From contig NZ_CP101824.1 of assembly GCF_024498195.1 (NCBI RefSeq), positions 2,108,001 to 2,172,000 of the forward strand: 64,000 nucleotides of DNA, given 5' to 3'. Positions 16,824 to 23,144 of this stretch are shown one piece after another. This stretch comes from Halovivax cerinus. GTDB taxonomy: Archaea; Halobacteriota; Halobacteria; Halobacteriales; Natrialbaceae. The notes beneath the pieces were generated by a model. It saw only the letters and a list, made by a program, of their open reading frames with translations. It did not search any database and was not told where the DNA came from. Each line of letters starts with the position of its first letter. Within the stretch, counting starts at the first letter, position 1. The position numbers were made by a program, and so were the translations under genes.

Positions 16824-18119
16824 ATGTCCGCAAATGTTGCCGAGGAGGCGGGAGACGCGTCCGAGGAGACGGAGCCGGAGACGGCCCTAGAGACCGCGAA
16901 ACGGCAGCTCGCCCGCGCGACGGCCCACGTCGATATCGATCCGAACGTCGTCGAGCGCCTAGAGCGGCCCCGAAAGATCCACGAGGTGTCCCTGCCGCTC
17001 CGGCGCGACGACGGCAGCGTCGAGGTTCTGACCGGCTTTCGCGCCCAGCACGACAGCGTTCGCGGCCCGTACAAGGGCGGCCTGCGCTATCATCCCGAGG
17101 TTACGCGCGACGAGTGCGCCGGCCTCGCGATGTGGATGACCTGGAAGTGCGCCGTCATGGACCTCCCCTTCGGCGGCGCCAAGGGTGGCATCGTCGTCGA
17201 TCCCAAGGACCTGAGCAGCACGGAGAAGGAGCGACTCACCCGCCGGTTCACCCAGGAGATCCGCTCGGCGATCGGTCCGACGAAGGACATCCCGGCGCCC
17301 GACATGGGCACCGACCCGCAGACGATGGCCTGGCTCATGGACGCCTACAGCATGCAGCAGGACGAGACGATCCCCGGCGTCGTCACGGGGAAACCGCCGG
17401 AGATCGGCGGCAGCGAGGGCCGCGAAGAGGCCCCCGGCCGCAGCGTCGCGATCATCACCCGCGAGGCCTGCGACTACTACGACTACGACCTCTCGGAGAC
17501 CACGGTCGCCGTCCAGGGCTTCGGCAGCGTGGGCGCCAACGCCGCGCGCCTGCTCTACGAGTGGGACGCCAACATCGTCGCCGTCAGCGACGTCAACGGT
17601 GCCCGCTACGACGCCGACGGCATCGACGTCGACAAGATCCCCTCTCACGACGAAGAGCCCGAGGCCGTCACCGCCGCGACCGGCGTCGGCGAGAAGATCA
17701 CCAACGAGGAACTGCTCGAACTCGACGTCGACGTCCTCATCCCCGCCGCCATCGGTAACGTCCTCACCGAGGACAACGCGACCGACGTCAGCGCCGACAT
17801 GATCGTCGAAGGGGCGAACGGCCCCACGACCTTCGCCGCCGGCGCGATCTTCGCCGAGCGCGACATCCCGGTCATCCCCGACATCCTCGCCAACGCCGGC
17901 GGCGTCACCGTGAGCTACTTCGAGTGGCTCCAGGACATCAACCGCCGTGCCTGGTCGCTCGAACGCGTCAACGAGGAACTCGAGACCGAGATGCTCTCCG
18001 CCTGGGACGACGTCAGAGACGAAGTCGAAGCACAGGACCTCACCTGGCGCGACGCCGCCTACGTCGTCGCGCTCAAGCGCATCGCCGCCGCGCACGAGTT
18101 CCGCGGCGTCTGGCCATAG
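16824..18119 (+). CDS. gdhB: Glutamate dehydrogenase
   Basis: Glutamate dehydrogenase interconverts glutamate with 2-oxoglutarate and ammonia, using NAD(P). The 431-residue protein shows [14 protein letters not shown] for substrate binding, the catalytic-lysine motif [29 protein letters not shown], the Rossmann glycine motif [14 protein letters not shown], and the C-terminal [14 protein letters not shown]. The first 25 residues are an acidic extension. The presence of Asp (SDVNG) after the second Rossmann strand suggests NAD preference, which is an inference. A hairpin terminator follows the stop directly. Confidence 0.95.
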
Positions 18120-18121
18120 GA

Positions 18122-18144
18122 CCGACGAACTTTTTCTTCGTCGG
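18122..18144 (+). terminator. Hairpin just after gdhB
   Basis: CCGACGAA (18122-18129) pairs with TTCGTCGG (18137-18144) around a T-rich loop. The stem begins 3 nt past the gdhB stop codon, which fits a transcription end or mRNA-stabilising hairpin. Confidence 0.55.
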
Positions 18145-18173
18145 GGTCACCTAAGGCGACCCGCTCTCTGCTC

Positions 18174-18398
18174 ACGGGCGCTTAGCGCCCGTTCGCATGG
18201 TCAGCGGGACCGGAGGTCCCGCTCGACTCGAGAAACGTCGATGAAACAGGCCGGCGGCGACGCCGCCGGTGTGGTTCGAAAGAGCCCAAGCGCGCTTACG
18301 TCATCCTGCGTTCTTTCGTCATCTCGAAGTGCCGTCGCACTTCGACGAGTCATCAGAAGACCGTCGGTCTTCCGAGATGCCGAGAGCGCTCCGCTCTC
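18174..18398. repeat. Array of seven short hairpins or palindromes in the gdhB downstream region
   Basis: Within 225 bases I find: ACGGGCGC/GCGCCCGT with loop TTA (18174-18192); AGCGGGACC/GGTCCCGCT with loop GGA (18203-18223); CCGGCGGC/GCCGCCGG with loop GAC (18251-18269); palindrome AAGCGCGCTT (18288-18297); TCGAAGTGC/GCACTTCGA with loop CGTC (18324-18345); GAAGACC/GGTCTTC with loop GTC (18356-18372); and GAGAGCG/CGCTCTC with loop CTC (18382-18398). The arms differ from one another, so this is not a copied repeat. All stems are perfect and most loops are three nt. The 409-base stretch 18120-18528 holds no convincing gene; the short ORFs across it are side effects of the stems. Confidence 0.8.
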
Positions 18399-18528
18399 TC
18401 GTAGCAACCCTCGCCTTCTCCGTTCGCGCGGATGCTAGTCCGACCGGTCCCGCCTTCGCAGGTACCGCACGCAGCTCCGCCAATGCCGGGGGTATGGAGC
18501 TGCCGTCGTCTCGACCCGTCCCCATCCA

Positions 18529-19152
18529 CTATCGATCCAGATACGCTATCGCCTCCTCGTCGCTCACCTGGCCGAACTGTCGGTAGAACTGGCCGACGGC
18601 GCGGAACGTGGGAGGTGTCTGCAGGGCGATCACCTCGTCGGCTTCCGCGTGAAGGTCGTCGGCGGAGTCGGGTGAGGAGACGGGAACGGCGAGCGTGACG
18701 GAGGCGGGGTTCTTTTCGCGGACCTGTCTGAGGCAGGCGCGGGCCGTCGCGCCGGTGGCGACGCCGTCGTCGACGACCACGACGCGGTTGCCCTCGATAT
18801 CGGGGAGGTCGCTCGTGCCACGGTAGCGTTCGAGTTTGGCGCGAGCCGCCTCGATCTCCCGGTCGCGCTCGCGCTCGACGTGGTCCTGGGGGACACCGAT
18901 GCGGTCGATGAGTGGCTCGTTTCGCCAGACTGCCCCGTCGCTCGCCGCGGCGCCGATGGCCAGTTCGGGGTTGTGCGGCGCGCCGATCTTCGACGCCACG
19001 ACGACGTCCAGGTCGGCGTCCAGCGCGTCGGCCACGGGACGGGCGACCGGGAGCGCTCCGCGTGGAATTCCTAGGACGAGGTCGGCCACGACGCCGCGAC
19101 GGTCGAGCTCGGCCGCGAGGCGCTCGCCGGCCTCCGTTCGATCGTCGAACAT
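18529..19152 (-). CDS. Predicted phosphoribosyltransferase
   Basis: The 207-residue protein has the type I phosphoribosyltransferase fold. The PRPP-binding loop is NRVVVVDDGVATGATARA (about 125-142); an early strand-loop VADLVLGIPRGALPVA fits the family hood. Proteins of this subgroup (COG1926-like) are stand-alone, often with no known substrate, and are not the standard purine or pyrimidine salvage enzymes. It is oriented away from the next gene and has no operon partner, so a specific reaction cannot be given. Confidence 0.8.
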   Translation of the reverse strand: MFDDRTEAGERLAAELDRRGVVADLVLGIPRGALPVARPVADALDADLDVVVASKIGAPHNPELAIGAAASDGAVWRNEPLIDRIGVPQDHVERERDREIEAARAKLERYRGTSDLPDIEGNRVVVVDDGVATGATARACLRQVREKNPASVTLAVPVSSPDSADDLHAEADEVIALQTPPTFRAVGQFYRQFGQVSDEEAIAYLDR

Positions 19153-19967: not shown

Positions 19968-20024
19968 TATCCTCTTCCCCGCCCTCTCTCACCTCCGCTT
20001 CACACACTCTCCCCTCACCCACCC

Positions 20025-20152
20025 ACACTCTCACCCACCCACATTCTCACCCACTCACATTCTCACCCACTCACATTCTCACCCACTCACATTCTCACCC
20101 ACTCACATTCTCACCCACCCACATTCTCACCCACCCACATTCTCACCTCACC
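20025..20152. repeat. 16-bp minisatellite, eight units, pyrimidine-rich on the plus strand
   Basis: Eight consecutive 16-base units of the type ACATTCTCACCCACTC run without interruption. The first and last units carry changes, and the rest differ only at T/C in the fifteenth base. The flanks (19975-20024 and 20153-20175) are also C/T-rich. Since 16 is not a multiple of three and the MFS gene begins at 20234, the array is noncoding. The long strand bias toward C, T and A on the plus strand could allow unusual DNA structure. Confidence 0.9.
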
Positions 20153-20233
20153 CCCCTCTCACCACTCTCACTTTTTCGGGCCCACTCTTCCGCATCCAGT
20201 ACCCTTTTCTCCGGGCCCTTTCCCAGCATAGTC

Positions 20234-22181: not shown

Positions 22182-23144
22182 ATGCTCGCAGATGGAACGC
22201 TGGGCCTGTACATGGGAGCGATCGTGCTCGGTGCGGTCCACGGAATCCTTCCCGATCACGGCTGGCCGATCGCCGCGATGCACTCGTTGAACAAGAAGCG
22301 AACCTGGTTTCACGGCGTCGCGTCGGGATTCATCCTCGGGATGGGCCACCTCATCAGCAGTATCGCCGTCGTCGCCGTGTACTTCTGGGCGTTGCAGTAC
22401 TTCGACCTGACCGAGATACACGGACTCAAGTACGTCGCCGGCGCCGTCCTGATCGTACTCGGCGTCCGCGAGTACGTCCGAGGTGGCCACTCCCACGACC
22501 ACGCCACCAGTGAGGGCGACGAATCTGACCACGCCCACCACGACGATCACGCCCACCACGACGATCACGGTCACGACGATCACGGGCACGACGATCACGG
22601 GCACGACGATCACGGTCACGACGATCACGGGCACGACGATCACGGGCACGACGATCACGCCCACCACGACGATCACGGGCACGACGACCACGCCCACCAC
22701 GACGATCACGGGCACGACGACCACGCCCATCACGACGATCACGGGCACGATCACGGCTCCGCCGACCAGGGCTGGGTGGCGCGCCTTCGCAGCGTGATAC
22801 CATTCGTCGGGGGCGACGATGCCCACGCGCAGGCCCACTCGCTCGAAGAACAGGCCGATCAGCGCGGTCTCTACGGGATCGCCGCCTTCGCGTTCCTCCT
22901 CGGGTTCGCCCACAACGAGGAGATCGAGATCATCGCCATCTGTACGGGCTCGGCGCAGTGTCTGGAACTGATGCTCTCGTACGCGATCGCGGTTCTCATC
23001 GCCGTCATGACGATGACGCTGTTGCTCATCGCCGGATTCGAGTACCACAAAGATCGGATCGAAAAGTACGAGGAGTACCTTCCGACGGTCACCGCCGCCG
23101 TGTTGATCCTGATGGGGCTGGCGTTCATCGTCGGCATCTTCTGA
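22182..23144 (+). CDS. NicO/RcnA-like nickel-cobalt transporter with a His/Asp repeat loop
   Basis: The 320-residue membrane protein has three hydrophobic segments before and three after a long hydrophilic loop. The first segment has VHGILPDHGWPIAAMHS, matching the HxxxPDH signature of NicO/RcnA metal transporters. The loop (about residues 102-191) is built of GHDDH and AHHDDH units with about 37 His, far longer than the usual RcnA loop as I recall it. The second half has FAHNEEIEIIAICTG. RcnA relatives are often exporters, others importers; direction is not settled by sequence. A NikR-like gene precedes it, which points to nickel. I start at the ATG 29 nt after a TATA box. Confidence 0.82.
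   Translation: MLADGTLGLYMGAIVLGAVHGILPDHGWPIAAMHSLNKKRTWFHGVASGFILGMGHLISSIAVVAVYFWALQYFDLTEIHGLKYVAGAVLIVLGVREYVRGGHSHDHATSEGDESDHAHHDDHAHHDDHGHDDHGHDDHGHDDHGHDDHGHDDHGHDDHAHHDDHGHDDHAHHDDHGHDDHAHHDDHGHDHGSADQGWVARLRSVIPFVGGDDAHAQAHSLEEQADQRGLYGIAAFAFLLGFAHNEEIEIIAICTGSAQCLELMLSYAIAVLIAVMTMTLLLIAGFEYHKDRIEKYEEYLPTVTAAVLILMGLAFIVGIF
22529..22757 (+). repeat. Coding minisatellite for the His/Asp loop
   Basis: Units of 15 bp (for example GGGCACGACGATCAC, encoding GHDDH) and 18 bp (encoding AHHDDH) follow one another in frame. Third positions vary little between units, which suggests expansion by recombination or slippage, and copy number is likely to vary between strains. Confidence 0.85.

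Follow-up and report, generated by a model that had tools for sequence, protein, structure and literature searches.

The hairpin array behind gdhB in the window, that is, the whole stretch of 64,000 nucleotides of Halovivax cerinus DNA that was analysed, is recognised by sequence comparison as one copy of a dispersed, hairpin-packed repeat element of haloarchaea. Members of the family have a common frame, are placed behind stop codons and exchange whole hairpins as cassettes, and the window copy also carries an inserted 60-bp unit. The element is probably a mosaic intergenic repeat, a haloarchaeal counterpart of REP/BIME, which is kept as a 3'-end module consisting of a T-stretch terminator and hairpins. 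We infer that it acts in termination, that a Y1/HUH-type protein reads its fold and that cassettes are exchanged by recombination on linkers. More tentatively, the family may represent an undescribed class of 3'-end elements made of a frame and interchangeable cassettes, in which a dedicated protein or RNA machine would recognise the fold of one strand and not its sequence; as part of the same tentative reading, such a class would evolve by swapping structure-equivalent cassettes.

Hairpins with a perfect stem of at least 7 bp and a loop of 3–5 bases were counted and compared to 500 dinucleotide shuffles. The 409-base intergenic stretch between gdhB and the phosphoribosyltransferase gene contains 6 such hairpins versus 0.17 expected, with a maximum of 3 among the 500 shuffles. 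For hairpins with 3-base loops, the same stretch contains 5 versus 0.08 in shuffles. The array is thus confirmed as real. The initial annotation had counted seven perfect hairpins; the array at 18174-18398 holds six, with stems of 7–9 bp and loops of 3–4 bases (five with 3-base loops), and the seventh may be a 5-bp chance stem. The window minus the array has 37 such hairpins, which is at chance level given 36 expected for the whole window. Because hairpins elsewhere in the window stay at chance level, their geometry is not a property of the genome at large. Across 800 kb sampled from the same genome, only 3 clusters reached at least 5 such hairpins per 260 bp, the gdhB array being one of them, and shuffled sequence had none. 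A CRISPR or direct repeat array, already doubted in the initial annotation, was rejected, since the array has no convincing repeats with spacers and its direct repeats amount to a single, chance-like, two-copy pair of 16 nt. Two other repeat stretches occur in the window. Tandem repeats of 15/33 bp at 22530-22750 encode a His/Asp-rich stretch (GHDDHGHDDHAHH) of a predicted membrane protein of 345 amino acids. Nearly nine 16-bp tandem repeats (CTCACCCACCCACATT) lie at 20014-20153; translated, they would form a Ser/His/Pro-rich leader of a transporter-like ORF, and the stretch is probably not coding.

The window copy is approximately 310 bp long (18126-18436; Table 1) and starts 6 nt after the gdhB stop codon, in agreement with the earlier proposal that placed the array at the 3' end of gdhB. 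The T5C stretch inside the 5' strand of P1 (18131-18136) lies 12 nt past the stop. From 18270 onward, the window aligns to two longer copies in genome G004 with the same four hairpins. Because P1 is decayed, the window copy may no longer be fully intact.

Table 1. Features of the gdhB copy of the element and its flanking genes (positions in the window)
Feature	Position	Strand	Basis or remark
gdhB, glutamate dehydrogenase	16824..18119	+	Pfam ELFV_dehydrog 3.5e-72; ORF; TAG stop
P1 helix, 5' strand CGAAcTTTTTC	18126..18136	+	Conserved in family members of A1-A3; within R1 match
P2 hairpin GGGTCACC taa GGCGACCC	18144..18162	+	Near-perfect 8 bp, one A.C mismatch; perfect in G003 ortholog
60-bp two-hairpin mobile unit	18167..18226	+	Alignment to empty site; filled and empty tnpB sites; other copies
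Hairpin in 60-bp unit	18174-18192	+	Perfect 8 bp, loop TTA
Hairpin in 60-bp unit	18203-18223	+	Perfect 9 bp, loop GGA
P1 helix, 3' strand AGAAAcGTCG	18231..18240	+	Family consensus AAAAAcTTCG; decayed in window copy
Conserved linker ATGAAACAGG	18241..18250	+	Consensus ATGAAAAAGG
P3 hairpin CCGGCGGC gac GCCGCCGG	18251..18269	+	Perfect 8 bp; other perfect hairpins fill slot in relatives
Distal hairpin 1, CGAAAGA...TCTTTCG	18277..18318	+	Perfect GAAAGAGCGC/GCGCTCTTTC in two G004 copies; here opened by 18-nt insertion
Distal hairpin 2, TCGAAGTGC cgtc GCACTTCGA	18324..18345	+	Perfect 9 bp, loop of 4 (CGTC)
Distal hairpin 3, GAAGACC gtc GGTCTTC	18356..18372	+	7 bp; loop GTT / AAC (reverse complement) in the two G004 copies
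Distal hairpin 4, GAGAGCG ctc CGCTCTC	18382..18398	+	Perfect 7 bp
Probable element end CCCTCGC...GCGCGGATGC	18404..18436	+	Decayed form of type B end CCGCTCGCttcGCTCGCGGATGC; inferred boundary
Convergent phosphoribosyltransferase-domain gene	18529..19152	-	Pfam Pribosyltran 2.6e-19

The array had been described as not being a repeat family, which proved wrong, as each of the 12 genomes searched has dispersed copies to which the 311 bases match. In three of the four other genomes of the genus (L002, L003, L004), CGAACTTTT, a hairpin, AAAACTTCGATGAAAA and another hairpin come directly after the gdhB ortholog, and the 14-mer AACTTCGATGAAAA is present in 6–18 exact copies per genome of the genus and in none of the reversed control. 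The common frame consists of the P1 5' strand CGAAcTTTTT, an internal loop, the perfect P2 hairpin, the P1 3' strand AAAAAcTTCG, ATGAAAA and further hairpins. Type A continues with GCACTCCTCC, a hairpin, GTCGTCGGCCCGCTCG, a hairpin and often CCAGCCTTTCCCCG plus a final hairpin; type B continues with a hairpin followed by CCGCTCGC-TTC-GCTCGCGGATGC. Covariance models were built from 13 type B copies (R1) and 12 type A copies (R2). The R1 model gave a single convincing match in the window (18124-18249, E=4.2e-6, these E-values being rough). Among 41 relatives, other families included, R1 matched 32 genomes and R2 25, with 13–30 matches for each model per genome of the genus. R1 matches were obtained in Haloterrigena salina (29), Halosimplex carlsbadense (23), Halococcus thailandensis (22), Natronococcus pandeyae (21) and Haloarcula argentinensis (7), and the same search gave none in Halobacterium salinarum and Halorubrum salsamenti.

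Rfam 15 gave no match in the window at curated scores, and none near threshold in seven copies even at lax E-values. No description of the family was found in open papers, although an account in a subscription journal could exist, and literature searches with the hairpin sequences returned only unrelated primers. A viral origin was considered and rejected. Viral contigs scanned by 16-mers yielded 49 hits, the best of which, a weak R1 match (28.7 bits, a rough E of 9e-4, 36% GC), was treated as chance, and the element had no phage match. The reading of CGATGAAA as hammerhead-like or as box C/D was dropped because the consensus lacks fitting core residues. A small TC/TC hairpin unit with the pattern GCTCACTTCGTTCGC is dispersed in 33 of the 41 genomes (0 in the reversed control) and is sometimes regularly spaced, as at G004:C1:2922242, 2922418 and 2922593.

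Pairing in the element was examined with a structure written by hand, and shuffles and slid versions of this structure served as controls. Paired cells accounted for 91.0% in type B and 92.6% in type A, versus 33–55% in the slid versions. Two-sided changes numbered 16 in type B (6.4 shuffled) and 23 in type A (9.4 shuffled), and one-sided G-U changes were almost absent (0 of 277 cells in type B; 1 of 244 in type A). The P1 base is altered on both sides in other copies, for example CAACCTTTT/AAAAGGTTG behind pstB and CGACcTTTT/AAAAcGTCG. These compensating changes argue that the helices are real. The internal loops of the hairpins also show a strand bias. Of 135 symmetric 2x2 internal loops in the element hairpins, 65 are TC/TC (1.6 expected) and 6 are GA/GA. 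Read on the complementary strand, TC/TC becomes tandem G.A, in most cases preceded by a pyrimidine and followed by a purine; in this context, tandem G.A forms highly stable sheared pairs, in DNA as well as in RNA. The right-end hairpin of tnpB in the same genomes has the same GA motif (GC-GA-ACGGC..GCCGT-GA-GC). Single mismatches on the plus strand are A.C in 23 cases versus G.U in 8 for stems of at least 8 bp, and 13 versus 2 for stems of at least 9, where chance stems predict about six of each; A.C corresponds to G.U/G.T on the minus strand. The strand bias points to a fold of the minus strand, either as single-stranded DNA or as RNA.

A structured RNA would account for part of this evidence. 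Its transcript, likeliest running against the upstream gene, would act as antisense or 3'UTR RNA, and the covariation would then reflect a selected fold. Helix covariation, the tandem G.A and G.U reading of the minus strand and the conservation of the single-stranded linkers across loci and genera are consistent with such an RNA. The minus strand also has the better folding energy in 75 of 80 copies, but this energy is a weak guide to the strand since shuffles favour the minus strand as well (67 of 80). We nevertheless consider a structured RNA doubtful, as one-sided G-U steps are nearly absent, whole hairpins are replaced at 1–4% gene divergence, no conserved promoter was recognised by eye and the family is not in Rfam. 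Furthermore, the terminal loops, mostly GNA or its reverse complement TNC, are about equal in both orientations (TTC 26 and GAA 21; TCC 11 and GGA 11).

The placement of the copies relates the family to gene ends. According to a heuristic gene finder, the element starts at most 12 nt from the stop codon of an open frame in 107 of 161 copies, many at 0–4 nt, versus 7.8% of random sites; about one third of the copies have no detectable stop codon in front. The upstream genes, with names read from their sequences, include those for EF-2, RadA, GyrB, the PolD large subunit, thermosome, PAN, an IF2-like factor, TFS and IlvE. A type B copy follows radA in all five genomes of the genus and therefore looks vertically inherited rather than mobile at this locus. 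No copy was found in other Natrialbaceae genera with a readable radA end, and in G029, a genome of another family, the copy is diverged and differs at the base of P1. Several side observations were made at these sites. In L150, L151, L172, L173, L175, L300 and L304, which have no stop codon ahead, TACA/TAGA often lies 6–12 nt before the element start; it may be a promoter, mark a junction with another element or be due to chance. Right after the stop codon, L034 (minus strand), L056 and L354 have two tandem CCGAACTTTT-like starts, which look like the result of one element inserting into, or being duplicated over, an older one. At a convergent pair (G000:C1:2224954-2225640, partly L143), the type A copy behind ilvE, expanded to eight hairpins, faces a type A copy on the opposite strand. 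Immediately behind the end of a NusG/Spt5-like gene (G000:C1:2187681-2187862), six more perfect hairpins, among them TGATGAGCGC tgac GCGCTCATCA, form a further array; in reverse, it has the linkers TCTGCTCACGGCGC and TTCGCATGGTC like the 60-bp unit, and it is absent from the listed R1/R2 matches.

This placement would suit a pure terminator or insulator zone, in which the T-stretch and the pile of hairpins halt transcription from both sides at gene ends. Besides the position behind stop codons, T5C is a known terminator (PMC7237163), convergent gene pairs can each own an element (L034, L059), and hairpin clusters are proposed terminators in bacteria (PMC8355165). Such a zone leaves unexplained the conserved linkers, the fixed TC/TC motif, the mobility of the 60-bp unit and the type A copy situated between the same-strand genes gyrB and gyrA (L031 in G003; L171 in G011), and on its own it appears an unlikely account. 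A strong terminator would be costly between gyrB and gyrA unless gyrA has its own promoter, so this copy counts against termination, as does the order of the parts, since the T-stretch precedes the hairpin, unlike in bacterial terminators where it follows. Stand-alone ACCGAACTTTTT as a general terminator was rejected, being rare (2 in G000, 10 in G004) and mostly within known element copies.

The hairpins themselves are exchanged. Between G002 and G003, whole hairpins are replaced behind upstream genes that are 96–99% identical, and the flanking linkers are identical or nearly so. At nine loci, spread over five species, the type A P3 slot is occupied by the stem AGCCGCGC, which is closed by seven different loops (gaa, gta, ttc, acg, aca, tac and gtc), and gdhB is followed by type A in G004 and by type B in G000, G002 and G003. 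From these three observations, the hairpins behave as cassettes of a shared pool. The geometry is thus kept with differing arms, as had been noted for the array, and in relatives the array is kept or its hairpins are swapped for other perfect ones; the arms, previously called unrelated, do differ between copies, but identical stems recur at many loci across the family. Also in line with the earlier suggestion of a process generating short inverted repeats, the window copy and the gdhB element of G003 align apart from a clean 60-bp insertion with 2 of the 6 hairpins. The same unit is inserted, with the reading frame kept, where tnpB encodes its C-terminus, and adds about 20 residues there (L377, G000:C1:2487014-2487400; L375, G002), and is missing from the tnpB copies L371 and L376. 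The empty tnpB site reads GAAGCCC-TG-CCCTCAAGG (or ACCC-TA) versus GAAGCCC-TA-[unit]-TA-CCCTCAAGG when filled; the TA on both sides is a possible duplication, at one site only. The unit also occurs in other contexts and on plasmids, and outside the gdhB copy it is known without the element frame. No terminal inverted repeats were seen in it (TCTGCTC...GCGCTA or ...GCTCGA). Empty sites were found for the unit only and none for the frame itself, to which no transposase was linked. The tnpB ends were rejected as the source of the frame, as R1 and R2 have no match at tnpB loci.

Alternatively, the array could be a by-product of mutation, with template switching during replication perfecting imperfect palindromes without any function. 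The nearly perfect arms, the two-sided changes and the loop flips between two G004 copies (GTT/AAC and TC/GA) are in keeping with it, and template switching may contribute to the flips. As the whole explanation it is improbable, as the window is otherwise at chance, and a strand-biased TC/TC, conserved linkers, a place at stop codons and cassettes recurring at many loci would not be expected. A chance cluster in GC-rich sequence, for which nothing was found, is refuted by the excess over shuffles and the homologous copies elsewhere and has practically no likelihood.

For the mosaic 3'-end module, a mechanism of three steps can be proposed. The T-stretch at the front would end the transcript of the upstream gene, by analogy with Haloferax, where T5C ended 95% of transcripts in an assay and a hairpin 59% (PMC7237163). 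The hairpins would be kept because one strand folds through tandem G.A pairs (TC/TC opposite) and GNA-type loops, and this fold might be read by a single-strand DNA transposase of the HUH/Y1 type (IS200/IS605 kind) that spreads cassettes, or as RNA. Cassettes would be carried from copy to copy by ectopic recombination at the linkers that the copies have in common. Reading of the fold together with linker recombination would explain equal geometry with different arms.

An odd local pattern is thus tied to an element family across a large part of the haloarchaea, behind genes such as those for EF-2, RadA, GyrB, PolD, thermosome and PAN. Two questions become testable, namely, what marks and protects the 3' ends of haloarchaeal mRNA, and how palindromic repeats spread with their geometry kept and their sequence changed. 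For a repeat family, evolution through slots and cassettes, with strand-biased tandem G.A hairpins, would be a novel mode.

The family resembles several known systems. REP/BIME are high-copy extragenic palindromes arranged in mosaics and often abutting stop codons (PMC3733652, PMC12306157, PMC2817692), and the gdhB element family is likewise extragenic, mosaic, present in many copies per genome and placed behind stops. In contrast to REP, whose arm sequence is conserved, the arms here are exchanged, and geometry, linkers and the TC/TC loop are conserved; recurring stems occur only within slots, and no GTAG or CGTC tag was noticed by eye in the copies. With the T5C terminator of Haloferax volcanii (PMC7237163), the gdhB copy shares T5C behind the stop, but in the element the T-stretch forms one strand of a conserved helix and is followed by hairpins. 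PATE and the IS200/IS605-type ends of haloarchaea have near-terminal palindromes in non-coding elements (PMC3119063). The tandem GA architecture of the tnpB right-end hairpin is shared with the element hairpins; the element differs in having many hairpins and not terminal ones, in sitting behind housekeeping genes, in the lack of R1/R2 matches at tnpB loci and in that no terminal oligonucleotide was identified. The SMR of Haloquadratum are very short repeats that lack a transposase and insert into IS605-type elements (PMC3119063), as the 60-bp unit inserts in tnpB. SMRs are 80–110 bp long with inverted terminal repeats, whereas the 60-bp unit has two hairpins and no clear terminal repeat. Overall, the element is most likely REP/BIME-like mosaic DNA with a build related to that of the PATE and SMR of Haloquadratum (PMC3119063).
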